From Styela clava (lineage: Eukaryota > Chordata > Ascidiacea > Stolidobranchia > Styelidae), in the NCBI RefSeq assembly GCF_964204865.1, contig NC_135250.1, forward strand, positions 7,750,001-7,814,000: DNA of 64,000 nt. The letters run 5' to 3'. Position numbers and translations under genes: made by a program. Shown piece by piece: positions 34,074 to 64,000 of this stretch (position 1 is its first letter; every line of letters begins with the position of its first letter). The notes below the pieces were generated by a model. That model did not search any database. It was not told the DNA's origin and was given only the letters and a program-made list of their open reading frames with translations.

Positions 34074-35240
34074 AAATAAATTTATCTCATATAAGACATA
34101 CATCATATTGTTCTGATAAGATGATGACAAAAACATGTATGTAATCGCCACTTGACATTGGCTTGGCATCTATAAATAAAACTTGATTCCGTTAGACATA
34201 AATTCCGCAAAAATAAGACACAAAAATTCACATATCGTCCTTATTAAATATCAGCACATCCTAATTTGCTATATTTTAGAACCTGGTTGTTGAAGCATTA
34301 ATAAAATTGATAGCGTCTCAGCTAATTTAACACCCCTTTATCACAAACCAAATTAGCGAAAGCTTCGTTTTTAGAAGTTATATATGCAAGATGTCAAAAG
34401 TTTATTTGATGAATAAATATATTTAAATAAAAAAACTTGGTATATATGTAAATGATATGAATATTCCACCGTTAGTGCACCCTGCTGCTCACTGGAACGA
34501 CAATACGCCCGTAAACATGGTCCGAAGAATTAACTCATCGATGCCGCAAGGTGTCTCGCGTAATTGCCCACATAAAGAATGTGAACTTCCTGAAAAAGAT
34601 GTCGTTCGACTATTGTTATATTTGCTCGTCGAATTTTGTCTATTACAAGAAAGATACAGCTAATCTGAATCTTACAGTGAAGAAAGTACTTAGCCTGGTT
34701 TAACCAAATTGTCTAATAAACCTGTAAAATTCTATGTATTGTTATATGGTTTCAGTATTTGAATCAATTTTTCTTCAAACCTTGCTCTAATCAAAAAAAG
34801 GCATGAAGCAATTAAGCAAGCATTTTCAATGTCTCCAAAATAAACTATACCCAACCTGAGAGGATTGCATGAACCAACGTAACAGACTATGGTATATATA
34901 TACTTTTATTTACATTACATATATATTCACTAAAATTCTTACACACAAACAAACACAATAAATGAACAAACTACCCCACCAATTTCTGATGTGTTAATAT
35001 AAAACCTACAATTTGTATGTTGCTGACTTAAAATACGTTGTTGAATAAAACAAAATAATTAAATATTTAAATTCAAATTGTAGAAAACAATAACAAATTG
35101 TAAACTACATCCATAATGCAATTATAGTACGATATAATACATAAAGCAATTTCACATTTGCGAAATGGTTCAATAATAACACTGCAATAAATGCAAGCAA
35201 ATGGAGACTTAGTAGTATTACAATCGTTCTTAGGAGCGAT

Positions 35241-35322
35241 GGTGTTATGGTTATGGCGTTGTACTGACTACGTTGGTATCGTATGGACATTCGACAGGTC
35301 ACGTGAGCGGGGGATCGCCAGG
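35241..35322 (+). repeat. tRNA-like SINE piece, plus orientation, unit 1
   Basis: The unit 1 copy reads GGTGTTATGGTTATGGCGTT, resembling a polymerase III A box, then ACGTTGGTATCG and a TTCGAC motif like a weak B box. Equivalents lie at about 40995-41080, 46951-47032, 52818-52900 and 58683-58765. Confidence 0.4.
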
Positions 35323-36129
35323 TATGATTACCTGGTATGATGATTCGGTGAGAATAAATTGGACCAATTTAAGAGATGAAAAACCCGCGCGTTGGTGTAA
35401 CTCTTCGAAATTAGCCAAATTTGGAATAGAACAATTGGCACTAATTAGGACAGTCCAAAAATAATTTGAAACCAAATCAAAGTAAAAAACTTTCAGAAAA
35501 CAAAACTATTCTACTGTGAACTACTTTAATTAAAGGAATTGGTCTAACAACTGCAGAAAAGAAGATGTTGTCAACAACATGAACAACAATACAGCAACAC
35601 TACTGTCTGCGAGTTGTTTCTGTAAATAGTCAGATTTTCAGTATAAAAAATGAAAAATCTCAAGGCTCAATTGGCCATACAGAAACATTTCACATCCAAG
35701 TAGGAACATTATCCAAACAAAGCATTTCCGTAACTAGTCAGGCTCGTCATAAGCCTCAAGGTGAAACCACCATGTCGTTGGAAACACTGTTGATTGAATG
35801 AATGTTATATGCTGGATTTTGATATTTGAAAACATTTATTAATGATGTTCTGTTGTTGCCTTAATTTTTGGTACAAAATAAATGAAAGATTGATAAATAT
35901 CGCCTAAAAATTTATGATAATTCATTCGGGAATTTTTGCAAAAATTGCTACAACACATTGTTTTTAACATACGCACGAATGTGAATCAATTGTTAAAATA
36001 TGGTACAATACTCGAATTTAGAAGATGACTGGACTTTTTATAAATAAATTAACCATTATTAATTCTCAGATTGACGTTATTTGTTATGCCCTAACCTTTG
36101 CTTTATCGGTGAGCTTGAACAACGGACTA

Positions 36130-36208
36130 GCCTTGGTTCGAGATCTTTAATACGAATGCGATACCAACATCTTATCCAAACGCACTAATCACTGAGTCAT
36201 CGCGACCA
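36130..36208 (-). repeat. tRNA-like SINE piece, minus orientation, unit 1
   Basis: On the minus strand it reads GACTCAGTGATTAGTGCGTT, a good A-box match, then GATGTTGGTATCGCATTCG and a decayed B box (ATCTCGAACC). It shares the GTTGGTATCG core with the plus-oriented piece about 870 bp away. Equivalents lie at about 41867-41946, 47822-47902, 53691-53769 and 59557-59635. Confidence 0.45.
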
Positions 36209-36848
36209 AAGTTGCGACATTATTGGCAGAGCATTCGGCTGCTTTCAAATTGGTAAACTTCGTAACATAGAACTATATATGTGCCAAACGGGGTTAAGAC
36301 TTTAAGGGTCTTTATATAGATGATAGATGCATTTGTCACTACGTTAAAACAGAATTAGAATCATAACACTGTAAGTTGAGAGGTACATCCTCCAACAATT
36401 ACTACTTATATGCATCTAGAATGAATATCCACCTAACAAGACCAGGTGTGGAGAATGGGCAAGCATTCGATTACCAGTGGGATAAATACAAAGTATAATC
36501 CTAATACTACCTATATAAAATACTATCGACACAGAGTTGTAAGTCGAGCCGAGTTTATCTGTACAGGATTGGGTGCGCGATTTAGTTTGATGGAAAATGA
36601 ACAAATTTGTCAATTATCAAATTCAACTAATTAACAGGTATTGAAATCCCCCATAAAGATTTGTTTTATTTATTAAATAATTTTACCAATTTCATTAAAT
36701 TTACAAATACAACAATTTTAATTCTGGATTGCGCTTGGAATTGTGAATTCTGGTCAAGTATATGGGTTAAAATCAGCTCGCTTACAACTCTGTGCCCCTA
36801 AATAGTCACTCACGCTCGCACTCAATCAATTATAATTAAACTTTTATG

Positions 36849-38424
36849 TTAATGTTTGCGATGTAAACCCAAGCATCGCGCAAATGGGAATAACAAGCAT
36901 TTCAGAAACTTGCTTGCTTTCTTCCCCTTTGCTTTCTGTCGAGGATGAACACGTCGGTGGTTACGACTTGTGTTGATTGACTCGTTTTCCATTTTCATGG
37001 GTTTCAGTTTTGCCTCCATTGCTTCCTCTGTTCTTGCTCTCTCAAGGCTGTAAAGAATTATATATATGTGTCAGATGGAACTCTGAAACAGGACTTTACT
37101 TGAACGCAAATTGAATCACTGTGTGCGTATATATGACTAGCCACTTGGCCAAAAGAACTTACACGCTGCTCTAGTCAAATATTATGTCGTGACTCTAATA
37201 AGTGTTACCATTACTGGCGTTTAAATTTACCCGTTAGTAGAAGCAGACGGGACATACGATTTTCTTATTATACATAACTCTTGATTCTACGTTATGAGAT
37301 GCTAAAACCGTCGTTAATTAGAAATAAATAAACACAAGTTAGTAATCACCATTCATCAATGAGTTTGTCAACCATCACGTTGAGAATTTCCGCTACGTTG
37401 CTGCAATATTCATACGATAAAAATATTTCTTCCGGATAATTCGGGATGGGGAAGGCGACTGCTTGTGGTTTAGGATCATGAAACGATTCTTGATCAAACA
37501 ATCCAAGAATGTTGTCCTCCAGTTGCAGGCTTTCCAAAGATCCTTTTTAAACAAAATATGTTCAATATAGGGCACGAAACTTGAACTTCCCAACGGTTAT
37601 TTCCATTCACAAACATTAACATTTTCGTTAAAATGTAGTTCCAGACGAGCCCTCAGCACCTTGGCTACAAATATGTAGGGCCGACCGGTCGGCTTTAATC
37701 TATAAATACGAGTATAGGTCATCACACTTATTTGTTCCTATACTACGCCTCAATATTGTTTCACATTTCACTCTGCTTACTCAAACTTACTTAAATTTGG
37801 ATAGCTGCGTGTCTCCATTATCGGAACAATTACCTGATCTTGCGTCATCACGATAGGTTCGCTAGCCATTTTCTCCATAATTTTCTGGTATTCGACATGC
37901 TTCGTTTCGAACAAACCTGGGAATTTATAGCTAATTTTTTAACATCTATATTTTAAAATTCCATTACATATTTTAAAAAATATACTTACTCAAGATGCAA
38001 GGTGAACTTTGAGTGCTCAGCCAGCATTCCTGCTTCGGTTTTTGAATGATTGATGGATTGAGATAGTACTCGCTTCTCCACTTTTTGGTTGTCGTTAGTG
38101 GTGAGATCTATGTAAATTAAAATAAATTGTACCGTGGACATTTTAAATAGTAGTGATACAAATATCATGCCCAAAATGAAGCGAAAATTCAGAAAGATGA
38201 TATGTAGTAGTATATTCGGTAAACTAATAGCGAAGAGGTTTGTTAACGTTTACGCTATCTTAACTTCACCCTAAATAACTCTTTTCTACAAAAAAGTAGT
38301 CAGCTGATGTACAAGATTAATGATAGGTTTATAATCTTTTGTGAGAAAGTCTCCCATATTCTTTTGTAGAAAAAAAAATCGACACAGTTATCGCATTATT
38401 CATTCTCGACTGCATAATTTTCAT
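36849..38424 (-). pseudogene. Array gene copy 1, first exon broken
   Basis: Exons 2-5 (37990-38107, 37791-37916, 37350-37542, 36849-37047) are open, with sites and phases like the other copies. Exon 1 is cut. Homology stops near 38397, removing its last 26 or so bases, its donor and the start of intron 1, so the 38424 start codon no longer leads to exon 2. No good replacement donor is visible nearby. Exon 4 is also the most divergent, reading LGLFDQESFHDPKP where others read LSDQESVHDPKP. The copy is probably dead, or uses an unseen alternative first exon. Confidence 0.6.
37680..37693. other. 14-bp palindrome in intron 3 of array gene copy 1
   Basis: GCCGACCGGTCGGC is self-complementary and GC-rich in AT-rich surroundings. 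It recurs unchanged at 43433-43446, 49387-49400, 55255-55268 and 61094-61107. Confidence 0.6.
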
Positions 38425-38504
38425 CTAGTTGTTCACGCGGTGAAAACTGTGCAATTGATATTTTCTCAAAATATAAATCAATTTTAATAAAATTGTTACG
38501 TTTA

Positions 38505-38512
38505 TGACGTCA
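38505..38512. promoter_or_regulatory. CRE-like TGACGTCA upstream of array gene copy 1
   Basis: A perfect 8-bp palindromic CREB/ATF site lies 81 bp upstream of the ATG (minus strand), retained although exon 1 is broken. Confidence 0.5.
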
Positions 38513-39730
38513 CAATAACCAAATACACTTCGCCGGACGTCCCATTGCTTGTGGCATTTTATACTACTATATTTGTTTGCCGTTTAAAGTGATTTCCAGA
38601 ATAAGTGTTAGATAAAATTAAAATAAAAAAGCAGCTTTCCACCTCATGAAACAGGATTGTTTTCGTGTACACCGTAATTGTGTGCGGGTCGCTGACGACG
38701 ATTTCGCCACTCGTTTGCCTTGCTCATAACTGTATTAGCACGGACCGCGGCAATGAAGTCCAAACAGACTTCATAATGGCGCCAAGCAAAGTGATTAGTT
38801 CTTTTCTAAGCGCCTCATAGTGTTGTGCTGGAAGCCTGCTTAGTAAATTGGTTTGCAGCTCAGGAATCGGTGGACACTTGGTTGTGTTATCATACGGACT
38901 TCAAACTGAGGTTACATGGTTTAAAAAGATCGGTAAGTTCTGAATTACGTCAGGTTTATTTGTGTTTGTTTTATGTTAATGCACTAATGTAGTATTGCGG
39001 TACAATACTTTCATATGGAAGGGCTATTCGTACACTAATGAATTGTTGTGACCTAAGTGACAGAATTTCCGTACTTCATTGGGACTGAGAATATTCTGCC
39101 AACCGTATTTTCATGTAAAACTGACCTTCGCACTATTAATGCTTTCAAATAACAAAGTGTCCACACGATCCTCATTTGCTGCAAAGCTAGACAATGTATT
39201 TTACGCTACAAGCATTTTTATTACTCAGTAAAATCACATATTTAAGCAAATTAAATGAGACGGTCAAAGAACAACACACCACAGTTGGCAGAAATATTCA
39301 TGTACAGGAACGGCACTTCGATATCGAATAAGAAACATAGGGTGTAACAAAATGAAAATGATTACGTAGTCTAATTATCGCGTTTTTAGACTTTAGTTTG
39401 GTTCTAATTTCAATGTCCGAGTCAAATTGGTATTATTTTGAGTTAAAACACGTCCAATAAATGAATATAATCTGAGATAAGCAATTGCATTTTTGAAGAT
39501 TCTTGTAAATAGCAAATACTTAATCAATAACCTTGAACGTTGTTTCGGATGTTTTTAATAAGATAGTTGTATATATAATGAAAGCGTGGATTAATGTTAA
39601 AATATTTTTGCTAAATTTTTTGTCGATATATATAAATATATATATATATGTAGAATTATATGAACTGGGATTTTGCCGTACACGTAAGATACGGTCAAAT
39701 TCCAAATGGAATGTGGAGATTCTAAATATT
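38513..39730. other. Upstream flank of array gene copy 1 (same layout in every unit)
   Basis: It holds a conserved CG-containing stretch (about 38690-38930) ending in a plus-strand donor-like ATCG/GTAAGT, and an open stretch near 39240-39330 (plus, LSKLNETVKEQHTTV). These could be exons of a plus-strand or noncoding transcript, but I could not link them. A (TA)n tract near 39626-39650 varies in length between units. Confidence 0.35.
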
Positions 39731-42581
39731 AAATAAATTTATCTCATAAGAGACAAACAGCATATTGTTCTGATAAGACGGTGGAAAACATGTATGTAAT
39801 CGTCACTTGACATTGGCTTGCCATCTATAAATACACATTGATTCCGTTAGACATAAATTCCGCAAAAATAATACACAAGAATTTACATATCGTCCTTATT
39901 ATATATCAGCACATTTTAATTTGCTATATTTAAGAACCTAATTGTTGAAGCATTAATAAAATTGATAGCGTCTCAGCTAATTCAACACCCCTTCATCACA
40001 AACCAATCTAGCGAAAGCTTCGTTTCTAGAAGTTATATATGCGAGTTATATATGTCAAAAAATTAGTTGATGGATAATTATATTCAAATAAAAAAAACTT
40101 GGTTAATATGTAAATGATATAAACTTTCCACCGCTAGTGCGCCCTGCTCAATGAAACGACAATACGCTTGTAAACATCGTCCAAAGAATTAACTCCTCAT
40201 GCCGCAAGGTGTCTCGCGTAATTGCCCACATAAAGAATGTGAACTTCCTGGAAAGGTTGTCGTTCGACTATTGTTATATTGGCTCGTCGAATTTTGCCTA
40301 TTACAAGAAAGATACAGCTAATCTGAATCTTACAGTGAAGAAAGTATTTAGCCTGGTTTAATCAAATTGTCTAATAAACCTGTAAAATTCTACGTCTTGT
40401 TATTTGGTTTCGGTATTTGAATCAATTTTTCTTCAAATCTTACTCTACTCAAAAAAAGGCATGAAGCAATTAGATATTAATCGCGGCTGTTGGAATAGTT
40501 TACATGAAACTATTTGCCATTGAGTAACGCTTTATTAGTTTTCGCAAGCGGGAAGCATGATCTTTTTGTCATTTTCAATGTTTCCAAAATAAACTATACC
40601 CAACCTGAGTGGATTGCATGAACCAACGTAACAGACTATGGTATATATATACTTTTATTTACATTACATATATATTCACTAAAATTCTTACACACAAACA
40701 AACACAAACACAATAAATGAACAAACTACCCTACCAATTTCTGATGTCTTAATATAAAACCTACAAATTCTTTGTTGCTGACTTAAAATACGTTGTTGAA
40801 TAAAACAAAATAATTAAATATTTAAATTCAAATTGTAGCAAACAACAACAAATTGTAAACTACATCCATAATGCAATCATAGTACGATATAATACATAAA
40901 GCAATTTCACATTTGCGAAATGGTTCAATAATAACACTGCAATAAATGCAAGCAAATGAAGACTTAGTAGTATCACAATCGTTCTTAGGAGCGATGGTGT
41001 TGTGGTTAAGGCGTTGCACTGACTACGTTGGTATCGCATGGACATTCGACAGACCACGTGAACGGGGGATCGCCAGGTAATCATACACCGTTCGGTGAGA
41101 CTAACTTGGACCAATTTAAGGGATGAAAAACCCGCGTGTTGGTGTAACTCTTCGAAATTAGCCAAATTTGGAATAGAACAATTAGCACTCTTTAGGACAG
41201 TCCAAAAATAATTTGAAACCAAATCAAAGTAAAAGACTTTCAGAGAACAAAACTATTCTACTTTGAACTAAAGGGATTGGTCTAACAATTGCAGAAAAGA
41301 AGCTGTTGTCAACAACATGAACAACAATACAGCAACACTACTGTCTGCGAGTTGTTTCTGTAAATAGTCAGATTTTCAGTATAAAAAAAGAAAAATCTCA
41401 AGGCTCAATTGGCCATACAGAAACATTTCACATCCAAGTAGGAACATTATCCAAACAAAGCATTTCCGTAACTAGTCAGGCTCGTCATAAGCCTCAAGGT
41501 GAAACCACCATGTCGTTGGAAACACTGTTGATTGAATGAATGTTATATGCTGGGTTTTGATATTTGAAAACATTTATTAATGATGTTCTGTTGTTGCCTT
41601 AATTTTTGGTACAAAATAAATGAAAGATTGATGAATATCGCCTAAAAATTTATGATAATTCATTCGGGAATTTTTGCGAAAATTGCTACAACACATTGTT
41701 TTTAACATACGCACCAATGTGAATCAATTGTTAAAATAAAGTACAATAATCGAATTTAGAAGATGACTGGACTTTTTATAAATAAATTAACCATTAATAA
41801 TTCTCAGATTGACGGTATTTCTTATGACCTAACCTTTGCTTTATCGGTGAGCTTGAACAACGGACTAGCCTTGGTTCGAGATCTTTAATACGAATGCGAT
41901 ACCAACATCTTATGCAAACGCACTAATCACTGAGTCATCGCGACCAAAGTTGCGACATTATTGACAGAGCATTCGGCTGCTTTCAAATTGGTAAACTTCG
42001 TAACATAGAACTATATATATATATGTGCCAAACAGGGTTAGGACTTTAAGGGTCTTTAGCTAGATGATAGATGCGTTTGCCACTACGTTAAAACAGAATT
42101 AGAATCATACCACTGTAAAGTTGAGAGGTACATGTTGAGAGGTACATCCCCCAACAATTACTACTTATATGCATCTAGAATGAATACCCACCTAACCAGA
42201 CCAGGTGTGGAGAATGGGCAAGCATTCGATTACCAGTGGGATAAATACAAAGTATAATCATAATACTACCTATATAAAATACTATCGACACAGAGTTGTA
42301 AGTCGAGCCGAGTTTATCTGTACAGGATTGGATGCGCGATTTAGTTTGAATGGAAAATGAACATAATTTTCAAATATCAAATTCAACTAATTAACATGTA
42401 TTGGAATCCCCTATAAAGATTTGTTTACATTATTAAATAATTTTACCAATCTCATTAAATTTACAATTACAACAATTTTAATTCTGGATGGCGCTTGCAA
42501 TTGTGAATTCTGGTCAAGTATATGGGTTAAAATCAGCTTGCTTACAACTCTGTGCCCCTAAATAGTCACTCACGCTCGCAC

Positions 42582-44252
42582 TCACTCAATTATAATTAAA
42601 TTTTTCTGATAATGTTTGCGATGTAAACCCAAGCATCGCGCAAATGGGAATAACAAGCATTTCAGAAACTTGCTTGCTTTCTTCCCCTTTGCTTTCTGTT
42701 GAGGATGAACACGTCGGTGGTTACGTTTTGTGTTGATTGGCTCGTTCTCCATTTTCATGGGTTTCAGTTTTGCCTCCATTGCTTCCTCTGTTCTTGCTCT
42801 CTCAAGGCTGTAAAGAATCATATATATGTGTCAGATGGAACTCTGAAACAGGACTTTACTTGATCGTAAATTGAACCACTTGTGCGTATATATGACTAGC
42901 CACTTGGCAGAAAGAACTTACACGCTGCTCTAGTCACTTATTATGTGGTGACTCTAATAAGTGTTACCAGTACTGGCGTTTAAATTTACCCGTTAGTAAA
43001 GGCAGACGGGACATACGACTTTATTATTATACATAACTCTTGATTCTACGTCGTTAAAAAACGTCGTTAATTAGAAATAAATAAACGCAAGTTAGTAATC
43101 ACCATTCGTCAATGAGTTCGTCAACCATCACGTTGAGAATTTCCGCTACGTTGCTGCAATATTCATACGACAAAAATATTTCTTCCGGATAATTCGGTAT
43201 GGGTAGGGCGACTGCTTGTGGTTTAGGATCATGAACCGATTCTTGATCAGACAATCGAAGAATGTCGTCCTCCAGTTGCAGGCTTTCCAAAGATCCTTTT
43301 TAAACAAAATATGTTCAATATAGGGCACGAAACTTGAACTTCCCAACGGTTATTTCCATTCACAAACATTAACATTTTCGTTAAAATGTAGTTCCAGACG
43401 AGCCCTCATCACCCTGGCTACAAATATGTAGGGCCGACCGGTCGGCTTTAATCTATAAATACGAGTATAGGTCATCACATTTTTTTGTTCCTATACTACG
43501 ACTCAATATTGTTTCACATTTCACTCTGCTTACTCAAACTTACTTAAATTCGGATAGCTGCGTGTTTCCATTATCGGAACAATTGCCTGATCTTGCGTCA
43601 TCACGATAGGTTCGCTAGCCATTTTCTCCATAATTTTCTGATATTCGACATGCTTCGTTTCGAACAAACCTGGGAATTTATAACTAATTTTTTAACATCT
43701 ATATTTTAAAATTCCATTACAAATTTTAAAAAAATATACTTACTCAAGATGCAAGGTGAACTTTGAGTGCTCAGCCAGCATTCCTGCTTCGGTTTTTGAA
43801 TGATTGATGGATTGAGATAGTACTCGCTTCTCCACTTTTTGGTTGTCGTTAGTGGGGAGATCTATGTAAATTAAAATAAATTGTACCATGGACATTTTAA
43901 ATAGTAGTGATACAAATATCATGCCCAAAATGAAGCGAAAATTCAGAAAGATGATATGTATTAGTATATTCGGTGCACTAATAGCGAAGAGGTTTGTTAA
44001 CGTTTACGCTATCTTAACTTCACCCTAAATACCTCTTTTCTGCAAAAAAGTAGTCTGCTGATGTACAAGATTAATGATAGGTTCATAATCTTTTGTGAGA
44101 AAGTCTCCCATATTCTTCTGTAGAAAAAAAAATCGACACAGTTATCGCATACCGCAGGCATGTGCATACTGGCATTTAAATTTCAATTAATTGCTTACCA
44201 TCATATCCCCAGAAGCTTTCACAATATTCATTCTCGACTGCATAATTGTCAT
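42582..44252 (-). CDS. Array gene copy 2, unrecognised protein, stop-lost C terminus
   Basis: Exons 44199-44252, 43744-43861, 43544-43669, 43103-43295 and 42582-42807 join to 238 aa. The usual stop after the HRKH ending has become a tyrosine codon, so the frame adds nine residues (YQKNLIIIE) before the next stop. Exon 4 reads DILRLSD where copies 3-5 read LGLSD. All splice sites are GT/AG. An in-frame TAG lies just upstream of the ATG. Confidence 0.65.
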
Positions 44253-44332
44253 CTAGTTGTTCACGCGGTGAAAACTGTGCAATTGATATTTTCTCAAAAT
44301 ATAAATCAATTTTAATAAAATTGTTACGTTTA

Positions 44333-44340
44333 TGACGTCA
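44333..44340. promoter_or_regulatory. CRE-like TGACGTCA upstream of array gene copy 2
   Basis: The same site lies 81 bp upstream of the start. A TATA-like TTTATATTTT lies between it and the ATG. Confidence 0.5.
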
Positions 44341-47300
44341 CAATAACAAAATACACTTCGCCGGACGTGTCATTGCTTGTGGCATTTTATACTACTATAT
44401 TTGTTTGCCGTTTAAAGTGATTTCCAGAATAATTGTTAGATAAAATTAAAATAAAAAACGCAGCTTTCCATCTCATGAAACAGGATTGTTTTCGTGTACA
44501 CCGTATCTGTGTGCGGGTCGCTGACGACGATTTCGCCACTCGTTTGCCTTGCTCATAACTGTATTAGCACGGACCGCAGCAATGAAGTCCAAACAGACTT
44601 CATAATTGCGCCAAGCAAAGTGATTAGTTCTTTTCTAAGCGCCTCATAGTGTTGTGCTGGAAGCCTGCTTAGTAAATTGGTTTGCAGCTCAGGAACCGGT
44701 GGACACTTTGTTGTGTTATCATACGGACTTCAAACTGAGGTTACTTGGTTTAAAAAGATTGGTAAGTTCTGAATTACGTCAGGTTTATTTGTGTTTGTTT
44801 TATGTTAATGCACTAATGTAGTATTGCGGTACAATACTTTCATATGGAAGGGCTATTCGTACACTAATTAATTGTTGTGACCTAAGTGACAGAATTTCCG
44901 TACTTCATTGGGACTGAGAATATTCTGCCAACCGTATTTTCATGTAAAATTGACCTTCGCACTATTTATGCTTTCAAATAACAAAGCGTTCACACGATCC
45001 TCATTTGCTGCGAAGCTAGACAATGTATTTACGCTACAAGCATTTTTATTACTCAGTAAAATCACATATTTAAGCAAATTAAATGAGACGGTCAAAGAAC
45101 AGCACACCACAGTTGGCAGAAATATTCATGTACAGGAACGCACTTCGATATCGAAACACAGGGTGTAACAAAATGAAAATGATTAGGTGGTCTAATTATC
45201 GCGTTTTCAGACTTTAGTTTGGTTCTAATTTCAATGTCCGAATCAAATTGGAACTATTTTGAGTTAAAACACGTCCAACTGTTAACTTAAGTTGGTTAAA
45301 TTAACCCAATATGCTATGAGAGTACAATGATATCTCAGTTTACAAACATCCATGTGCATGGTATCCACAGCCATAAATATAATGACAAATACACATATCA
45401 CTGAACAAAATAAATTGAATTTAGTCCCAGCGCAAAATGAATATATTCTGAGATTGACTTTTTGAAGATTCTTGTAAATAACAAATATTAAATGAATAAC
45501 CTTGAACGTTGTTTCGGATGTTTTTAATAAGATAGTTGTATATATAATGAAAGCGTGGTTTATTGGTAAAATGTTTTTGCTAAATTTTTTTGTCGATATA
45601 TATATATATATGTAGAATTATATTAACTGGGATTTTGCCGTACACGTAAGAGACGGTCAAATTTCAAATGGAATGTGGAGATTCTAAATATTAAATAAAT
45701 TTATCTCATAAGAGACAAACAGCATATTGTTCTGATAAGACGGTGGAAAACATGTATGTAATCGTCACTTGACATTGGCTTGCCATCTATAAATACACAT
45801 TGATTCTGTTAGACATAAATTCCGCAAAAATAAGACACAAGAATTCACATATCGTCCTTATTATATATCAGCACATTTTAATTTGCTGTATTTTAGAACA
45901 TAATTGTTGAAGCATTAATAAAATTGATAGCGTCTCAGATAATCTAACACCCCTTTATCACAAAACAAGCTAGCGAAAGCTTCGTTTCTAGAAGTTATAT
46001 ATGCAAGATGTCAAAAAATTAGTTGATGGATAAATATATTTAAATAAAAAAACTTGGTTAATATGTGAATGATATGAACTTTCCACCGTTAGTGCGCCCT
46101 GCTGAATGGAACGACAATACGCTTGTAAACATGGTCCAAAGAATCAACTCCTCATGCCGCAAGGTGTCTCGCGTAATTGCCCACATAAAGAATGTGAACT
46201 TCCTGGAAAGGTTGTCGTTCGACTATTGTTATATTGGCTCGTCGAATTTTGCCTATTACAAGAAAGATACAGCTAATCTGAATCTTAGAGTGAAGAAAGT
46301 ATTTAGCCTGGTTTAATCAAATTGTCTAATAAACCTGCAAAATTCTACGTCTTGTTATTTGGTTTCAGTATTTGAATCAATTTTTCTTCAAATCTCACTC
46401 TACTCAAAAAAAGGCATGAAGCAATTAGATATTAATCGCGGCTGTTGGAAGAGTTTACATGAAACTATTTGCCATTGAGTAACGCTTTATTAGTTTTCGC
46501 AAACGGGAAGCAAGTTATTTTTGTCATTTTCAATGTTTCCAAAATAAACTATACCCAACCTGAGTGGATTGCATGAACCAACGTAACAGACTATGGTATA
46601 TATATACTTTTATTTACATTACATATATATTCACTAAAATTCTTGCACACAAACAAACACAAACACAATAAATGAACAAACTACCCTACCAATTTCTGAT
46701 GTGTTAATATAAAACCTACAAATTGTTTGTTGCTGACTTAAAATACGTTGTTGAATAAAACAAAATGATTAAATATTTAAATTCAAATTGTAGCAAACAA
46801 CAACAAATTGTAAACTACATTCATAATGCATACATAGTACAATATAATACATAAAGCAATTTCACATTTGCGAAATGGTTCAATAATAACACTGCAATAA
46901 ATGCAAGCAAATGAAGACCTTGTAGTATTACAATCGTTCTTAGGAGCGATGGTGTTGTGGTTATGGCGTTGCACTGACTATGTTGGTATCGTATGGACAT
47001 TCGACAGGCCACGTGAACGGGGGATCGCCAGGTAATCATACACCGTTCGGTGAGAATAACTTGCACCAATTTGAGGGATGAAAAACCCGCGTGTTGTGTA
47101 ACTCTTCGAAATTAGCCAAATTTGGAATAGAACAATTGGCACTAATTAGGACAGTCCAAAAATAATTTGAAACCAAATCAAAGTAAAAGACTTTCAGAAA
47201 ACAAAACTATTCTACTTTGAACTAAAGGGATTGGACTAACAATTGCAGAAAAGAAGCTGTTGTCAACAACATGAACAACATTACAGCAACACTACTGTCT

Positions 47301-48562
47301 GCGAGTTGTTTCTGTAAATAGTCAGATTTTCAGTATAAAAAATAAAAAAATCTCAAGGCTCAATTGGCCATACAGAAACATTTCACATCCAAGTAGGAAC
47401 ATTATCCAAACAGAGCATTTCCTTAACTAGTCAGGCTCGTCACAAGCCTCAAGGTGAAACCACCATGTCGTTGGAAACACTGTTGATTGAATGAATGTTA
47501 TATGCTGGGTTTTGATATTTGAAAACAATTATTAATGATGTTCTGTTGTTGCCTTAATTTTTGGTACAAAATAAATGAAAGATTGATGAATATCGCCTAA
47601 AAATTTATGATAATTCATTCGGGAATTTTTGCGAAAATTGCTACAACACATTGTTTTTAACATACGCACCAATGTGAATCAATTGTTAAAATAAAGTACA
47701 ATAATTGAATTTAGAAGATGACTGGACTTTTTATAAATAAATTAACCATTAATAATTCTCAGATTGACGGTATTTCTTATGACCTAACCTTTGCTTTATC
47801 GGTGAGCTTGAACAACGGACTAGCCTTGGTTCGAGATCTTTAATACGAATGCGACACCAACATCTTATGCAAACGCACTAATCACTGAGTCATCGCGACC
47901 AAAGTTGCGACATCATTGACAGAGCATTCGGCTGCTTTCAAATTGGTAAACTCCGTAACATAGAACTATATATATATATGTGACAAACAGGGTTAAGAAT
48001 TTAAGGGTCTTTAGCTAAATGATAGATGCGTTTGCCACTACGTTTAAACAGAATTAGAATCATACCACTGTAAGTTGAGAGGTACATGTTGAGAGGTACA
48101 TCCCCCAACAATTACTACTTATATGCATCTGGAATGAATACCCACCTAACCAGACCAGGTGTGGAGAATGGGCAAGCATTCGATTACCAGTGGGATAAAT
48201 ACAAAGTATAATCCTAATACTACCTATATAAAATACTATCGACACAGAGTTGTAAGTCGAGCCGAGTTTATCTGTACAGGATTGGGTGCGCGAATTAGTT
48301 TGAATGGAAAATGAACATATTTTTCAATTATCAAATTCAACTAATTAACATGTATTGGAATTCCCTATAAAGATTTGTTTACATTATTAAATAATTTTAC
48401 CAATCTCATTAAATTTACAATTACAACAATTTTAATTCTGGATGGCGCTTGGAATTGTGAATTCTGGTCAAGTATATGGGTTAAAATCAGCTTGCTTACA
48501 ACTCTGTGCCCCTAAATAGTCACTCACGCTCGCACTCACTCAATTATAATTAAATTTTTCTG

Positions 48563-50205: not shown

Positions 50206-50285
50206 CTAGTTGTTCACGCGGTGAAAACTGTGCAATTGATATTTTCTCAAAATATAAATCAATTTTAATAAAATTGTTACGTTTA

Positions 50286-50293
50286 TGGCGTCA
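50286..50293. promoter_or_regulatory. Mutated CRE (TGGCGTCA) upstream of array gene copy 3
   Basis: One base differs from the other four copies, so this copy could be expressed differently if the site is functional. Confidence 0.45.
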
Positions 50294-53200: not shown

Positions 53201-54430
53201 GTATAAAAAATAAAAAAATCTCAAGGCTCAATTGGCCATACAGAAACATTTCACATCCAAGTAGGAACATTATCCAAACAGAGCATTTCCTTAACTAGTC
53301 AGGCTCGTCACAAGCCTCAAGGTGAAACCACCATGTCGTTGGAAACACTGTTGATTGAATGAATGTTATATGCTGGGTTTTGATATTTGAAAACAATTAT
53401 TAATGATGTTCTGTTGTTGCCTTAATTTTTGGTACAAAATAAATGAAAGATTGATGAATATCGCCTAAAAATTTATGATAATTCATTCGGGAATTTTTGC
53501 GAAAATTGCTACAACACATTGTTTTTAACATACGCACCAATGTGAATCAATTGTTAAAATAAAGTACAATAATCGAATTTAGAAGATGACTGGACTTTTT
53601 ATAAATAAATTAACCATTAATATTTCTCAGATTGACGGTATTTCTTATGACCTAACCTTTGCTTTATCGGTGAGCTTGAACAACGGACTAGCCTTGGTTC
53701 GAGATCTTTAATACGAATGCGATACCAACATCTTATGCAAACGCACTAATCACTGAGTCATCGCGACCAAAGTTGCGACATTATTGACAGAGTATTCGGC
53801 TGCTTTCAAATTGGTAAACTTCGTAACATAGAACTATATATATATATGTGCCAAACAGGGTTAAGACTTTAAGGGTCTTTAGCTAGATGATAGATGCGTT
53901 TGCCACTACGTTAAAACAGAATTAGAATCATACCACTGTAAGTTGAGAGGTACATGTTGAGAGGTACATCCCCCAACAATTACTACTTATATGCATCTAG
54001 AATGAATACCCACCTAACCAGACCAGGTGTGGAGAATGGGCAAGCATTCGATTACCAGTGGGATAAATACAAAGTATAATCCTAATACTACCTATATAAA
54101 ATACTATCGACACAGAGTTGTAAGTTGAGCCGAGTTTATCTGTACAGGATTGGGTGCGCGATTTAGTTTGAATGGAAAATGAACATATTTTTCAATAATC
54201 AAATTCAACTAATTAACATGTATTGGAATTCCCTATAAAGATTTGTTTACATTATTAAATAATTTTACCAATCTCATTAAATTTACAATTACAACAATTT
54301 TAATTCTGGATGGCGCTTGGAATTGTGAATTCTGGTCAAGTATGTGGGTTAAAATCAGCTTGCTTACAACTCTGTGCCCCTAAATAGTCACTCACGCTCG
54401 CACTCACTCAATTATAATTAAATTTTTCTG

Positions 54431-56074
54431 TTAATGTTTGCGATGTAAACCCAAGCATCGCGCAAATGGGAATAACAAGCATTTCAGAAACTTGCTTGCT
54501 TTCTTCCCCTTTGCTTTCTGTTGAGGATGAACACGTCGGTGGTTACGTCTTGTGTTGATTGGCTCGTTCTCCATTTTCATGGGTTTCAGTTTTGCCTCCA
54601 TTGCTTCCTCTGTTCTTGCTCTCTCAAGGCTGTAAAGAATCATGTATATGTGTCAGTTGGAACTCTGAAACAGGACTTTACTTGATCGTAAATTGAACCA
54701 CTTGTGCGTATATATGACTAGCCACTTGGCCAAAAGAACTTACACGCTTCTCTAGTCAATTATTATGTCGTGACTCTATTAAGTGTTACCAGTACTGGCG
54801 TTTAAATTTACCCGTTAGTAAAAGCAGACGGGACATACGACTTTCTTATTATACATAACTCTTGATTCTACGTCGTTAAAAAACGTCGTTAATTAGAAAT
54901 AAATAAATACAAGTTAGTAATCACCATTCGTCAATGAGTTCGTCAACCATCACGTTGAGAATTTCCGCTACGTTGCTGCAATATTCATACGATAAAAATA
55001 TTTCTTCCGGATAATTCGGTATGGGTAGGGCGACTGCTTGTGGTTTAGGATCATGAACCGATTCTTGATCAGACAATCCAAGAATGTCGTCCTCCAGTTG
55101 CAGGCTTTCCAAAGATCCTTTTTAAACAAAATATGTTCAATATAGGGCACGAAACTTGAACTTCCCAACGGTTATTTCCATTCACAAACATTAACATTTT
55201 CGTTAAAATGTAGTTCCAGACGAGCCCTCAGCACCCTGGCTACAAATATGTAGGGCCGACCGGTCGGCTTTAATCTATAAATACGAGTATAGGTCATCAC
55301 ATTTTTTTGTTCCTATACTACGACTCAATATTGTTTCACATTTCACTCTGCTTACTCAAACTTACTTAAATTCGGATAGCTGCATGTTTCCATTATCGGA
55401 ACAATTGCCTGATCTTGCGTCATCACGATAGGTTCGCTAATCATTTTCTCCATAATTTTCTGATATTCGACATGCTTCGTTTCGAACAAACCTGGGAATT
55501 TATAACTAATTTTTTAACATCTATATTTTAAAATTCCATTACATATTTTAAAAATATATACTTACTCAAGATGCAAGGTGAACTTTGAGTGCTCAGCCAG
55601 CATTCCTGCTTCGGTTTTTGAATGATTGATGGATTGAGATAGTACTCGCTTCTCCACTTTTTGGTTGTCGTTAGTGGTGAGATCTATGTAAATTAAAAAA
55701 AATTGTACCATGGACATTTTAAATAGTAGTGATACAAATATCATGCCCAAAATGAAGCGAAAATTCAGAAAGATGATATGTATTAGTAGATTCGGTGCAC
55801 TAATAGAGAAGAGGTTTGTTAACGTTTACGCTATCTTAACTTCACCCTAAATAACTCTTTTCTACAAAAAAGTAGTCAGCTGATGTACAAGATTAATGAT
55901 AGGTTCATAATCTTTTGTGAGAAAGTCTCCCATATTCTTTTGTAGAAAAAAAAATCGACACAGTTATCGCATACCGCAGGCATGTGCATACTGGCATTTA
56001 AATTTCAATTAATTGCTTACCATCATATCCCCAGAAGCTTTCATAATATTCATTCTCGACTGCATAATTGTCAT
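54431..56074 (-). CDS. Array gene copy 4, closest to the copy consensus
   Basis: Exons 56021-56074, 55566-55683, 55366-55491, 54925-55117 and 54431-54629 give 229 aa. Intron 2 is only 74 bp, so mis-joining there is unlikely. The acceptor of exon 4 (TTTAAAAAG before GATC) has a poor pyrimidine tract in every copy and is the weakest site in the model. The longer open frames overlapping exon 2 in another frame (starting MGMIFVSLL) are shadows, because only the frame used here is compatible with both neighbours. Confidence 0.67.
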
Positions 56075-56154
56075 CTAGTTGTTCACGCGGTGAAAACTGT
56101 GCAATTGATATTTTCTCAAAATATAAATCAATTTTAATAAAATTGTTACGTTTA

Positions 56155-56162
56155 TGACGTCA
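56155..56162. promoter_or_regulatory. CRE-like TGACGTCA upstream of array gene copy 4
   Basis: The intact palindrome lies 81 bp upstream of the ATG, with a TATA-like stretch near 56117-56128. Confidence 0.5.
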
Positions 56163-59100
56163 CAATAACAAAATTCACTTCGCCGGACGTGCCATTGCTT
56201 GTGGCATTTTATACTACTATATTTGTTTGCCGTTTAAAGTGATTTCCAGAATAAGTGTTAGATAAAATTAAAATAAAAAAAGCAGCTTTCCATTTCATGA
56301 AACAGGATTGTTTTCGTGTACACCGTATCTGTGCGCGGGTCGCTGACGACGATTTCGCCACTCGTTTGCCTTGCTCATAACTGTATTAGCACGGTCCGCA
56401 GCAATGAAGTCCAAACAGACTTCATAATGGCGCCAAGCAAAATGATTAGTTCTTTTCTAAGCGCCTCATAGTGTTGTGCTGGAAGCCTGCTTAGTAAATT
56501 GGTTTGCAGCTCAGGAATCGGTGGACACTTGGTTGTGTTATCATACGGACTTCAAACTGAGGTTACATGGTTTAAAAAGATCGGTAAGTTCTGAATTACG
56601 TCAGGTTTATTTGTGTTTGTTTTATGTTAATGCACTAATGTAGTATTGCGGTACAATACTTTCATATGGAAGGGCTATTCGTACACTAATGAATTGTTGT
56701 GACCTAAGTGACAGAATTTCCGTCCTTCATTGGGACTGAGAATATTCTGCCAACCGTATTTTCATGTAAAATTGACCTTCGCACTATTTATGCTTCCAAA
56801 TAACAAAGCGTTCACACGATCCTCATTTGCTGCAAAGCTAGACAATGTATTTTACGCTACAAGCAATTTTATTACTCAGTAAAATCACATATTTAAGCAA
56901 ATTAAATGAGACGGTCAAAGAACAACCTACCACAGTTGGCAGAAATATTCATGTACAGGAACGGCACTTCGATATCGAATAAGAAACACAGGGTGTAACA
57001 AAATGAAAATGATTAGGTGGTCTAATTATCGCGTTTTTAGACTTTAGTTTGGTTCTAATTTCAATGTCCGAATCAAATTGGAATTATTTTGAGTTAAAAC
57101 ACGTCCAACTGTTAACTTAAGTTGGTTAAATTAACCCAATATGCTATGAGAGTACAATGATATCTCAGTTTACAAACATCCATGTGCATGGTATCCACAG
57201 CCATAAATATAATGACAAATACACATATCACTGAACAAAATAAATTGAGTTTAGTCCCAGCGCAAAATGAATATAATCTGAGATAAGCAATTGACTTTTT
57301 GAAGATTCTTGTAAATAACAAATATTAAATCAATAACCTTGAACTTTGTTTCGGATGTTTTTAATAAGATAGTTGTATATATGATGAAATCGTGGTTTAA
57401 TGTTAAAATGTTTTTGCTAATTTTTTTTGTCGATATATATACATATATGTAGAAATATATGAACTGGGATTTTGCCGTACACGTAAGAGACGGTCAAATT
57501 TCAAATGGAATGTGGAGATTCTAAATATTAATAGACATAAATTCCGCAAAAATAATACACAAGAATTTACATATCGTCCTTATTATATATCAGCACATTT
57601 TAATTTGCTATATTTAAGAACCTAATTGTTGAAGCATTAATAAAATTGATAGCGTCTCAGCTAATTTAACACCCCTTTATCACAAACCATTTTAGCGAAA
57701 GCTTCGTTTCTAGAAGTTATATATGCGAGTTATATATGTCAAAAAATTAGGATAAATGGATAAATATATTCGAATAAAAAAAAAACTTGGTTAATATGTA
57801 AATGATATAAACTTTCCACCGCTAGTGCGCCCTGCTCAATGAAACGACAATACGCTTGTAAACATGGTCCAAAGAATCAACTCCTCATGCCGCAAGGTGT
57901 CTCGCGTAATTGTCCACATAAAGAATGTGAACTTCCTGTAAAGGCGGTCGTTCGACTATTGTTATATTGGCTCGTCGAATTTTGCCTATTACAAGAAAGA
58001 TACAGCTAATCTGAATCTTACAGTGAAGAAAGTATTTAGCCTGGTTTAATCAAATTGTCTAATAAACCTGTAAAATTCTACGTCTTGTTATTTGGTTTCA
58101 GTATTTGAATAATTTTTCTTCAAATCTTACTCTACTCAAAAAAAGGCATGAAGCAATTAGATATTAATCGCGGCTGTTGGAATAGTTTACATGAAACTAT
58201 TTGCCATTGAGTAACGCTTTATTAGTTTTCGCAAGCGGCAAGCATGATCTTTTTGTCATTTTCAATGTTTCCAAAATAAACTATACCCAACCTGAGTGGA
58301 TTGCAGGAACCAACGTAACAGACTATGGTATATATATACTTTTATTTACATTACATATATATTCACTAAAATTCTTACACACAAACAAACACAAACACAA
58401 TAAATGAACAAACTACCCTACCAATTTCTGATGTGTTAATATAAAACCTACAAATTGTTTGTTGCTGACTTAAAATACGTTGTTGAATAAAACAAAATAA
58501 TTAAATATTTAAATTCAAATTGTAGCAAACAACAACAAATTGTAAACTACATCCATAATGCAATCATAGTACGATATAATACATAAAGCAATTTCACATT
58601 TGCGAAATGGTTCAATAATAACACTGCAATAAATGCAAGCAAATGAAGACTTAGTAGTATTACAATCGTTCTTAGGAGCGATGGTGTTGTGGTTAAGGCG
58701 TTGCACTGACTACGTTGGTATCGTATGGACATTCGACAGACCACGTGAACGGGGGATCGCCAGGTAATCATACACCGTTCGGTGAGAATAACTTGGACCA
58801 ATTTAAGGGATGAAAAACCCGCGTGTTGGTGTAACTCTTCGAAATTAGCCAAATTTGGAATAGAACAATTGGCACTAAATAGGACAGTCCAAAAATAATT
58901 TGAAACCAAATCAAAGTAAAAGACTTCCAGAAAACAAAACTATTCTACTTTGAACTAAAAGGAATGGACTAACAATTGCAGAAAAGAAGCTGTTGTCAAC
59001 AACATGAACAACATTACAGCAACACTACTGTCTGCGAGTTGTTTCTGTAAATAGTCAGATTTCCAGTATAAAAAATAAAAAAATCTCAAGGCTCAATTGG

Positions 59101-60269
59101 CCATACAGAAATATTTCACATCCAAGTAGGAACATTATCCAAACAAAGCATTTCCTTAACTAGTCAGGCTCGTCACAAGCCTCAAGGTGAAACCACCATG
59201 TCGTTGGAAACACTGTTGATTGAATGAATGTTATATGCTGGGTTTTGATATTTGAAAACAATTATTAATGATGTTCTGTTGTTGCCTTAATTTTTGGTAC
59301 AAAATAAATGAAAGATTGATGAATATCGCCTAAAAATTTATGATAATTCATTCGGGAATTTTTGCGAAAATTGCTACAACACATTGTTTTTAACATACGC
59401 ACCAATGTGAATCAATTATTAGAATAAAGTACAATAATCGAATTTAGAAGATGACCTGACTTTTTATAAATAAATTAACCATTAATAATTCTCAGATTGA
59501 CGGTATTTCTTATGACTTAACCTTTGCTTTATCGGTGAGCTTGAACAACGGACTAGCCTTGGTTCGAGATCTTTATTACGAATGCGATACCAACATCTTA
59601 TGCAAACGCACTAATCACTGAGTCATCGCGACCAAAGTTGCGACATTATTGACAGAGCATTCGGCTGCTTTCAAATTGGTAAACTTCGTAACATAGAACT
59701 ATATATATATATATGTGCCAAACAGGGTTAAGACTTTAAGGGTCTTTAGCTAGATGATAGATGCGTTTGCCACTACGTTAAAACAGAATTAGAATCATAC
59801 CACTGTAAGTTGAGAGGTACATGTTGAGAGGTACATCCCCCAACAATTACTACTTATATGCATCTAGAATGAATACCCACCTAACCAGACCAGGTGTGGA
59901 GAATGGGCAAGCATTCGATCACCAGTGGGATAAATACAAAGTATAATCCTAATACTACCTATATAAAATACTATCGACACAGAGTTGTAAGTTGAGCCGA
60001 GTTTATCTGTACAGGATTGGGTGCGCGATTTAGTTTGAATGGAAAATGAACATATTTTTCAATTATCAAATTCAACTAATTAACATGTATTGGAATCCCC
60101 TATAAAGATTTGTTTACATTATTAAATAATTTTACCAATCTCATTAAATTTACAATTACAACAATTTTAATTCTGGATGGCGCTTGGAATTAATCAGCTT
60201 GCTTACAACTCTGTGCCCCTAAATAGTCACTCACGCTCGCACTCACTCAATTATAATTAAATTTTTCTG

Positions 60270-61913
60270 TTAATGTTTGCGATGTAAACCCAAGCATCGC
60301 GCAAATGGGAATAACAAGCATTTCAGAAACTTGCTTGCTTTCTTCCCCTTTGCTTTCTGTTGAGGATGAACACGTCGGTGGTTACGTCTTGTGTTGATTG
60401 GCTCGTTCTCCATTTTCATGGGTTTCAGTTTTGCCTCCATTGCTTCCTCTATTCTTGCTTTCTCAAGGCTGTAAAGAATCATGTATATGTGTCAGATGTA
60501 ACTCTGAAACAGGACTTTACATGAACGTAAATTGAACCACTTGTGCGTATATATGACTAGCCACTTGGCCAAAAGAACTTACACGCTGCTTTAGTCAATT
60601 ATTATGTCGTGACTCTATTAAGTGTTACCAGTACTGGCGTTTAAATTTACCCGTTAGTAAAAGCAGACGGGACATACGACTTTCTTATTTTACATAACTC
60701 TTGATTCTGCGTCGTTAAAAAACGTCGTTAATTAGAAATAAATAAACACAAGTTAGTAATCACCATTCGTCAATGAGTTCGTCAACCATCACGTTGAGAA
60801 TTTCAGCTACGTTGCTGCAATATTCATACGATAAAAATATTTCTTCCGGATAATTCGGTATGGGTAGGGCGACTGCTTGTGGTTTAGGATCATGAACCGA
60901 TTCTTGATCAGACAATCCAAGAAAGTTGTCCTCCAGTTGCAGGCTTTCCAAAGATCCTTTTTAAACAAAATATGTTCAATATAGGGCACGAAACTTGAAC
61001 TTCCCAACGGTTATTTCCATTCACAAACATTAACATTTTCGTTAAAATGTAGTTCCAGACGAGCCCTCAGCACCCTGGCTACAAATATGTAGGGCCGACC
61101 GGTCGGCTTTAATCTATAAATACGAGTATAGGTCATCACATTTTTTTGTTCCTATACTACGACTCAATATTGTTTCACATTTCACTCTGCTTACTCAAAC
61201 TTACTTAAATTCGGATAGCTGCGTGTTTCCATTATCGGAACAATTGCCTGATCTTGCGTCATCACGATAGGTTCGTTAACCATTTTCTCCGTAATTTTCT
61301 GATATTCGACATGCTTCGTTTCGAACAAACCTGGGAATTTATAACTAATTTTTTAACATCTATATTTTAAAATTCCATTACATATTTTAAAAATATATAC
61401 TTACTCAAGATGCAAGGTGAACTTTGAGTGCTCAGCCAGCATTCCTGCTTCGGTTTTTGAATGATTGATGGATTGAGATAGTACTCGCTTCTCCACTTTT
61501 TGGTTGTCGTTAGTGGTGAGATCTATGTAAATTAAAAAAAATTGTACCATGGACATTTTAAATAGTAGTGATACAAATATCATGCCCAAAATGAAGCGAA
61601 AATTCAGAAAGATGATATGTATTAGTAGATTCGGTGCACTAATAGAGAAGAGGTTTGTTAACGTTTACGCTATCTTAACTTCACCCTAAATAACTCTTTT
61701 CTACAAAAAAGTAGTCAGCTGATGTACAAGATTAATGATAGGTTCATAATCTTTTGTGAGAAAGTCTCCCATATTTTTTTGTAGAAAAAAAAATCGACAC
61801 AGTTATCGCATACCGCAGGCATGTGCATACTGGCATTTAAATTTCAATTAATTGCTTACCATCATATCCCCAGAAGCTTTCATAATATTCATTCTCGACT
61901 GCATAATTGTCAT
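60270..61913 (-). CDS. Array gene copy 5
   Basis: Exons 61860-61913, 61405-61522, 61205-61330, 60764-60956 and 60270-60468 give 229 aa. Differences from copy 4 include KITEKMVNEP in exon 3, LEDNFLGLSD in exon 4 and EKARIEEAM in exon 5. All are substitutions that keep the frame open. Confidence 0.65.
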
Positions 61914-61993
61914 CTAGTTGTTCACGCGGTGAAAACTGTGCAATTGATATTTTCTCAAAATATAAATCAATTTTAATATAATTGTTACGTTTA

Positions 61994-62001
61994 TGACGTC
62001 A
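61994..62001. promoter_or_regulatory. CRE-like TGACGTCA upstream of array gene copy 5
   Basis: The intact palindrome lies 81 bp upstream of the ATG. Confidence 0.5.
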
Positions 62002-63371
62002 CAATAACAAAATACACTTCGCCGGACGTGCCATTGCTTGTGGCATTTTATACTACTATATTTGTTTGCCGTTTAAAGTGATTTCCAGAATAAGTGTTAG
62101 ATAAAATTAAAATAAAAAAAGCAGCTTTGCATCTCGTGAAACAGGATTGTTTTCGTGTACACCGTATCTGTGTGCGGGTCGCTGACGACGATTTCGCCAC
62201 TCGTTTGCCTTGCTCATTACTGTATTAGCACGGTCCGCAGCAATGAAGTCCAAACAGACTTCATAATGGCGCCAAGCAAAGTGATTAGTTCTTTTCTAAG
62301 CGCCTCATAGTGTTGTGCTGGAAGCCTGCTCAGTAAATTGGTTTGCAGCTCAGGAATCGGTGGACACTTGGTTGTGTTATCATACGGACTTCAAACTGAG
62401 GTTACATGGTTTAAAAAGATCGGTAAGTTCTGAATTACGTCAGGTTTATTTGTGTTTGTTTTATGTTAATGCACTAATGTAGTATTGCGGTACAATACTT
62501 TCATATGGAAGGGCTATTCGTACACTAATGAATTGTTGTGACCTAAGTGACAAAATTTCCGTCCTTCATTGGGACTGAGAATATTCTGCCAACCGTATTT
62601 TCATGTAAAATTGACCTTCGCACTATTTATGCTTCCAAATAACAAAGCGTTCACACGATCCTCATTTGCTGCAAAGCTAGACAATGTATTTTACGCTACA
62701 AGCATTTTTATTACTCAGTAAAATCACATATTTAAGCAAATTAAATGAGACGGTCAAAGAACAACACACCACCGTTGGCAGAAATATTCATGTACAGGAA
62801 CGGCACTTCGATATCGAATAAGAAACACAGGGTGTAACAAAATGAAAATGATTAGGTGGTCTAATTATCGCGTTTTTAGACTTTAGTTTGGTTCTAATTT
62901 CAATGTCCGAATCAAATTGGAATTATTTTGAGTTAAAACACGTCCAACTGTTAACTTAAGTCGGTTAAATTAACCCAATATGCTATGAGAGTGCAATGAT
63001 ATCTCAGTTTACAAACATCCATGTGCATGGTATCCACAGCCATAAATATAATGACAAATACACATATCACTGAACAAAATAAATTGAGTTTAGTCCCAGC
63101 GCAAAATGAATATAATCTGAGATAAGCAATTGACTTTTTGAAGATTCTTGTTAATAACAAATATTAAATCAATAACCTTGAACTTTGTTTCGGGTGTTTT
63201 TAATAAGATAGTTGTATATATGATGAAAGCGTGGTTTAATGTTAAAATGTTTTTGCCAATTTTTTTTGTCGATATATATATATATATATGTAGAAATATA
63301 TGAACTGGGATTTTGCCGTACACGTAAGAGACGGCCAAATTTCAAATGGAATGTGGAGATTCTAAATATTA

Positions 63372-64000
63372 ATAGACATAAATTCCGCAAAAATAATACA
63401 CAAGAATTTACATATCGTCCTTATTATATATCAGCACATTTTAATTTGCTATATTTAAGAACCTAATTGTTGAAGCATTAATAAAATTGATAGCGTCTCA
63501 GCTAATGTAACACCCCTTTATCACAAACCAATTTAGCGAAAGCTTCGTTTCTAGAAGTTATATATGCGAGTTATATATGTCAAAAAATTAGTTGATGGAT
63601 AAATATATTCAAATAAAAAAAACTTGGTTAATATGTAAATGATATAAACTTTCCACCGCTAGTGCGCCCTGCTCAATGAAACGACAATACGCTTGTAAAC
63701 ATGGTCCAAAGAATCAACTCCTCATGCCGCAAGGTGTCTCGCGTAATTGCCCACATAAAAAATGTGAACTTTCTGGAAAGGCTGTCGTTCGACTATTGTT
63801 ATATTGGCTCGTCGAATTTTGCCTATTACAAGAAAGATACAGCTAATCTGAATCTTACAGTGAAGAAAGTATTTAGCCTGGTTTAATCAAATTGTCTAAT
63901 AAACCTGTAAAATTCTACGTCATGTTATTTGGTTTCAGTATTTGAATAATTTTTCTTCAAATCTTACTCTACTCAAAAAAAGGCATGAAGCAATTAGATA
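63372..64000. repeat. Tandem array unit 6, first 629 bp only
   Basis: This continues the array past the window edge with the shortened junction. It shares CCCACATAAAAAATGTGAAC and CTACGTCATG with unit 4 but not with unit 5. Confidence 0.93.

Follow-up and report, generated by a model that had tools for sequence, protein, structure and literature searches.

The window analysed here, the whole 64,000-nt stretch C1:7750001-7814000 of the 376.6-Mb genome of Styela clava (GC content of the window 34.6%), contains an array of head-to-tail units, each carrying one minus-strand gene. Five tandem units of 5.7-6.0 kb and part of a sixth had been described in an earlier note on this DNA, and self-comparison bears this out, with unit starts at 34193, 39848, 45810, 51671, 57532 and 63373 (Table 1). 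The five units in the window are 95.5-98.5% identical to each other (pairwise differences of 1.5-4.5%), U1, the leftmost, being the most diverged. The partial sixth unit is present, although it is not the end of the array: it is cut merely by the window edge, and in the 39 kb read past this edge the array extends to 87667 in window numbering (C1:7837667), giving nine units in total. The array is flanked on the left by a beta-1,4-galactosyltransferase-like gene (Pfam Glyco_transf_7N on the minus-strand ORFs 31166-31474 and 30668-30952) and at its right end by a sulfotransferase gene (Sulfotransfer_1 on the ORFs 87645-88055 and 88259-88552, window numbering). Two kinds of repeat were also observed: an interspersed repeat of about 130 nt in the upstream part of the unit (unit position 492-622, approximately 45188-45318 in U2), whose matches, at 75-86% identity, were listed at 33 places spread over many chromosomes, and a GC-rich 74-bp tandem repeat (2.2 copies, 3601-3759) in the otherwise AT-rich window.

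Gene model of the array

The array gene is composed of five coding exons with phases 0, 1, 1, 2 and codes for a protein of about 226 aa. Exons of 118, 126, 193 and 199 nt are bordered by AG/GT in all five units of the window, and these exons 2-5 and their frames, as proposed in the earlier five-exon model, agree with the paralogues on C8 described below. The 54-nt exon 1 of that model had to be abandoned, being usable in U2 only: in U3, U4 and U5 it is interrupted by a stop and its GT donor is replaced by TT, and in U1 both the ATG and the donor are gone. Coding exon 1 is a 45-nt exon located about 110 nt upstream of the 54-nt candidate and was placed by means of the intact paralogues L035 and L036; it starts with MQSRMN... 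in the array and with MLS... on C8. Under this corrected model the frame is complete in seven of the nine units (U2-U6, U8 and U9). In U1 a deletion has truncated exon 1 to 38415-38397 and the donor is lost, and U7 lacks the acceptor and the first 8 nt of exon 4. In U2 the TAA stop reads TAT, so the last exon has 226 nt instead of the 199 nt of the other units. An alternative reading (exon 1 beginning with MGDFL, exon 2 in the frame DLPTND... and a longer exon 3) was dropped, because that exon 1 has a stop in four of the five units; its exon 2 frame was ruled out since exon 2 of L034, L035 and L036 is open and alike solely in the frame originally proposed. A conserved ACAG/TTT just upstream of the ATG of exon 1 (around 44274 in U2, and at the same place in L035 and L036) could possibly serve as a splice acceptor to a 5' exon that is either non-coding or trans-spliced.

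Table 1. Positions in the window of the array units, coding exons and downstream RNA-like domains
Feature	Position	Strand	Remarks
Unit U1	34193..39847	-	exon 1 truncated; probably a 5'-damaged copy
Unit U2	39848..45809	-	complete CDS, 235 aa, stop shifted
Unit U3	45810..51670	-	complete CDS
Unit U4	51671..57531	-	complete CDS
Unit U5	57532..63372	-	complete CDS
Start of unit U6	63373..64000	-	cut by window edge; U6-U9 run on to C1:7837667
U1 exons 2-5	38107-37990, 37916-37791, 37542-37350, 37047-36849	-	
U2 coding exon 1 (45 nt, phase 0)	44199..44243	-	homology to exon 1 of L035 and L036, same donor position
U2 exon 2 (118 nt)	43744..43861	-	least variable coding exon
U2 exon 3 (126 nt)	43544..43669	-	
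U2 exon 4 (193 nt)	43103..43295	-	
U2 exon 5 to stop (226 nt)	42582..42807	-	basic, cysteine-containing C terminus
U3 exons 1-5	50196-50152, 49815-49698, 49623-49498, 49249-49057, 48761-48563	-	
U4 exons 1-5	56065-56021, 55683-55566, 55491-55366, 55117-54925, 54629-54431	-	
U5 exons 1-5	61904-61860, 61522-61405, 61330-61205, 60956-60764, 60468-60270	-	
U2 d1	41459..41526	-	outer stem, small hairpin, UUG, hairpin, GACUA, outer stem
U2 d2	41341..41438	-	plan similar to d1; z-score -4.22
U1 d2	35603-35700	-	
U3 d2	47295-47393	-	
U4 d2	53163-53261	-	
U5 d2	59028-59126	-	

Paralogues and the encoded protein

A search of the whole genome with the array protein gave 46 matches, of which 36 fall in the array; among the other 10 the weakest are at chance level, and seven regions outside the array, L033-L039, were read. 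L035 (216 aa) and L036 (217 aa), both on a different chromosome, C8, are intact genes with five coding exons and with the same phases as in the array; exon lengths are 45/109/132/184/181 in L035 and 45/109/135/181/184 in L036, compared with 45/118/126/193/199 in the array, and each protein is 39% identical to that of the array. The pN/pS ratio is 0.51 between L035 and L036 (bootstrap 0.38-0.70; dN/dS 0.40) and 0.49 between L036 and U2 (0.41-0.59), with synonymous sites saturated in the latter pair; dN/dS between L035 and U2 is 0.42. It is therefore through the C8 paralogues (exon layout and a pN/pS of about 0.5) that the earlier proposal of a real, constrained protein gene holds, and not through the argument first offered for it, that exons 2-5 are open in all copies while other frames decay. 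That argument does not discriminate: U2 has, on its two strands, 107 stop-to-stop ORFs of 30 aa or more, and 48 of them are likewise open in all five units; in an array as young as this one, a frame that is still open is weak evidence. Exon number, phases and splice borders are conserved across diverged copies and the protein is under purifying selection between them; from this sequence comparison, the existence of a spliced protein-coding gene family appears very probable.

The other regions look less well preserved. L034, which adjoins L035, has no recognised exon 1, a stop in exon 4 and a changed frame near the end of exon 5, and looks like a pseudogene; exon 2 is interrupted by stops in L033, L037 and L039, and L038 gives piecemeal matches only, its coding part being degraded. 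Among the 38 matches of a genome search with the L035 protein, three weak places on C6, C2 and C17 being left out, no further intact locus was recognised. A viral origin was discarded after a viral contig scan in which none of 110 pattern matches was confirmed. Elsewhere in the genome, protein kinase domains were seen in clusters (C5:2.6-4.4 Mb, C10:4.0-4.4 Mb, C2:7.7-7.9 Mb and C18:1.8-2.0 Mb) as single frames of about 290-390 aa, which suggests intron-poor tandem kinase expansions, and two kinase domains share one uninterrupted 749-aa frame at C3:5546485-5548359, a layout that we take to be that of an S6-kinase-like gene without introns. No COX1 was found in the assembly, and a search for cuticle-protein domains found none either, a weak negative because the control genomes gave no signal.

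The earlier note could assign the protein to no family, and neither could we: the searches gave only chance-level matches (best E from 0.058 to 0.87) in Pfam, PDB (sequence and profile), NCBIfam and PHROGs, the last two being prokaryote and phage libraries, and one PDB search and one Pfam query having used the rejected reading of exons 2-3. Nothing in the proteins is hydrophobic enough to point to a membrane span (the highest 19-residue Kyte-Doolittle mean is 1.05). In the three pairwise comparisons among the array, L035 and L036 proteins, identities are 22/37, 23/37 and 30/37 in exon 2 and 24/54, 22/55 and 35/59 in exon 5; exon 4 is the least conserved (11/55 between array and L035, 11/54 in the second pair, 26/60 between L035 and L036). 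Exon 2 contains the conserved block K(K/R)W.SE ... WL.TQSSPCILS, in which one residue is changed in U8. A serine site, R-x-x-S-x-P-N, is present in both C8 proteins and altered in the array. For the central amphipathic helix proposed previously, structure prediction gives a helix in array exon 4 (residues 43-61 of the folded piece, block pLDDT 88), but it is barely kept in the C8 proteins: counted by eye, L035 has 2 of its 23 aligned residues. It lies just after a 9-residue stretch that the C8 proteins lack. Nor is it the strongest amphipathic segment, which in the array, L035 and L036 proteins is the basic C terminus (hydrophobic moment 0.56-0.59). The strongly basic character of this C terminus was rightly noted (net charge of +9 to +11 in the three proteins), and it contains two invariant cysteines (KCL..P..RC.G). 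Single-sequence structure models of exons 4 and 5 are little informative (mean pLDDT 71).

A conserved RNA-like element past the stop codon

Apart from the end of exon 2, the DNA of an array unit has one longer match only to that of L035, and this lies past the stop codon. It corresponds to an RNA-like element, absent from the earlier note, that lies about 0.4 kb past the stop of L035 and 1.1 kb past that of U2 and is composed of two similar domains, d1 and d2, on the sense strand of the gene. Out of 1000 shuffles, 1 attains the local similarity between d1 and d2 seen in U2 (which spans 17 nt only), 1 that seen in L035 and 8 that seen in L034. The fold of d2 is better than that of shuffled sequences in all six loci tested (z-scores of -4.22, -2.50, -2.96, -2.28, -5.62 and -2.28), and larger pieces of 212-235 nt are not unusually stable (-0.66 to -1.95). 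In an alignment of eight d2 rows, which include three array units and two close copies (L034 and L035) and so represent few independent lineages, 92.9% of the cells are paired and the covariation score is 0.188, values each reached by none of 500 shuffles; slid versions are 41-62% paired. A 10-bp stem is paired in all eight rows despite changes from C-G to U-A and from A-U to G-C. The number of cells with a double change is attained in 9 of 500 shuffles. The number of pairs in which both partners have changed (3 of 23) is attained in 136 and that of further pair types in 448, so that neither exceeds what shuffling gives, which speaks against a structure. An invariant U-G pair, together with recurring U-G pairs, suggests that the strand of d2 would be the sense strand of the gene.

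A covariance model of d2 matches in all nine units and in L034, L035, L036, L038 and L039 (five of the seven other regions), with scores of 80-99 bits versus weak matches of up to 26.7 bits on the reverse strand; it has no match in L033, where d2 is lost, or in the stretch read of L037, beyond whose end an element DNA match is found at C1:14174408-14174610. When the genome was searched at the DNA level with the element, the 13 places listed all fell within or next to loci of the family. Domain d1 is whole in U2, L033, L034 and L035; L036 and L039 have lost part of it, and in L038 it cannot be recognised. The high match of L033 over d1 is not special, because this region resembles the array along a large part of the unit: between intron 1 and the element, most 60-base windows are 78-97% identical and some stretches are low. 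The minimum-energy fold of d2 in L034 differs from the consensus fold, in L035 and L038 it is the inner hairpin that departs from it, and variation of d1 plus d2 within the array is not significantly low (424 of 5636 windows are as low). Rfam has no match in the whole window, and permissive searches with the element gave chance-level results, none near the gathering score. A selenoprotein insertion element was dropped by inspection against the consensus. Taken as a whole, a functional RNA structure is the likely nature of this element.

Origin of the array and possible roles

The reading that we favour, with reasonable rather than high confidence and leaving functional details aside, is a nine-fold head-to-tail amplification on C1 of a family gene together with its conserved downstream RNA-like element. 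It might be objected that the C8 genes alone are functional and that the C1 units are recent, unselected duplicates still open by chance. Several observations point that way: among U2-U5, for which the comparison of copies proposed in the earlier note is uninformative, pN (0.010-0.019) is about equal to pS (0.008-0.023) in exons 2-5; over the nine units, exons 3, 4 and 5 are about as variable as introns; U1 and U7 are broken; and L033, L034, L037, L038 and L039 look degraded. On the other hand, the same comparison of U1 with U2-U5 gives, in the originally proposed frame, pN of 0.025-0.031 against pS of 0.054-0.070 (pN/pS 0.36-0.50), exon 2 is unusually invariable over the nine units (2 of 118 columns; P 0.0025 uncorrected, with 135 of 5704 same-length windows as low) and seven of nine frames are intact, so that we regard a dying array as the less probable account, with a chance that is far from negligible.

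A different possibility is that amplification of the unit served a non-coding RNA, the element being its own transcript and the protein gene carried along, as could be argued from the retention of d2 in L038, whose coding part is degraded, and from the element being the longest DNA match between array and L035. This seems improbable, given that the element lies downstream of and sense to the gene in the loci read, that the 13 listed places are all in or beside family loci, that the C8 loci show constraint on their coding exons and that no Rfam class is matched. More improbable still is that the element is what remains of additional coding exons instead of an RNA structure: short peptides are alike between L035, L036 and L039, and several left-arm changes fall (by eye) at third positions, but stops close the frame in U2 and precede the conserved right arm in L034, L035, L036 and L039 (by eye), the motif common to d1 and d2 (CCTTGAGA) falls in different frames in the two, and right-arm bases change together with left-arm bases.

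Under the favoured reading, that of a gene and its element amplified together, a spliced gene of a small multi-locus family has been amplified nine times head to tail on C1, with seven frames remaining full and two damaged, and this amplification would raise the dose. Each unit, like five of the seven other family regions, carries the conserved sense-strand RNA-like structure downstream of the last exon, presumably in the 3' part of the mRNA, where it could act post-transcriptionally on localisation, stability or translation. The protein may be a soluble, largely unstructured regulator working through short motifs, the candidates being the exon 2 block, the serine site of the C8 proteins and the basic amphipathic C terminus with its two cysteines. 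This C terminus would most likely dock the protein on a membrane or an acidic partner, a role that its cationic sequence suggests tentatively at best. One may go further and picture an undescribed small basic protein and an undescribed two-domain three-way-junction RNA in the 3' region of its gene, amplified together, in which the protein might bind its own 3' element and thus form a self-regulated, dose-amplified module; this is a speculation to which we give little credence.

Animal genomes commonly contain young tandem arrays of genes that belong to no recognised class. The array resembles tandem taxon-restricted ('orphan') animal families in its recent head-to-tail copies of high identity, some of them broken, in its dispersed degraded relatives and in its lack of match to described domains; unlike in those families, the gene model is anchored here by intact paralogues elsewhere in the genome and an RNA-like element travels with the gene. 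This element recalls structured mRNA 3' elements (such as the histone stem-loop and localisation elements) in its sense orientation, its position past the stop codon and its conserved pairing, although it has two similar domains, has no Rfam family near the gathering score and is known from genomic DNA alone. It also recalls three-way-junction ribozymes of the hammerhead type, with three helices around a junction and UGAC(G/U)A after one hairpin; a hammerhead was ruled out, by inspection only, on account of a GAAA inside a helix, a G before the candidate hairpin and the lack of an Rfam match. A literature search for the combination of array, protein and RNA features found no matching paper. 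Protein and RNA match nothing in the libraries searched (Pfam, NCBIfam, PHROGs, PDB and Rfam, with no eukaryotic protein collection among them), and neither can be called new to science, because the comparison lacked such a eukaryotic collection. The analysis provides a corrected, testable model of a gene that has recently expanded to nine copies and in which no domain is recognised, and it is the conserved downstream RNA-like element, which has no Rfam match and accompanies the gene through its duplications, that lends this array more interest than the common young arrays of unclassified genes. If the element is part of the mRNA, the family would be a clean example in which a protein and a 3' structure evolve side by side.
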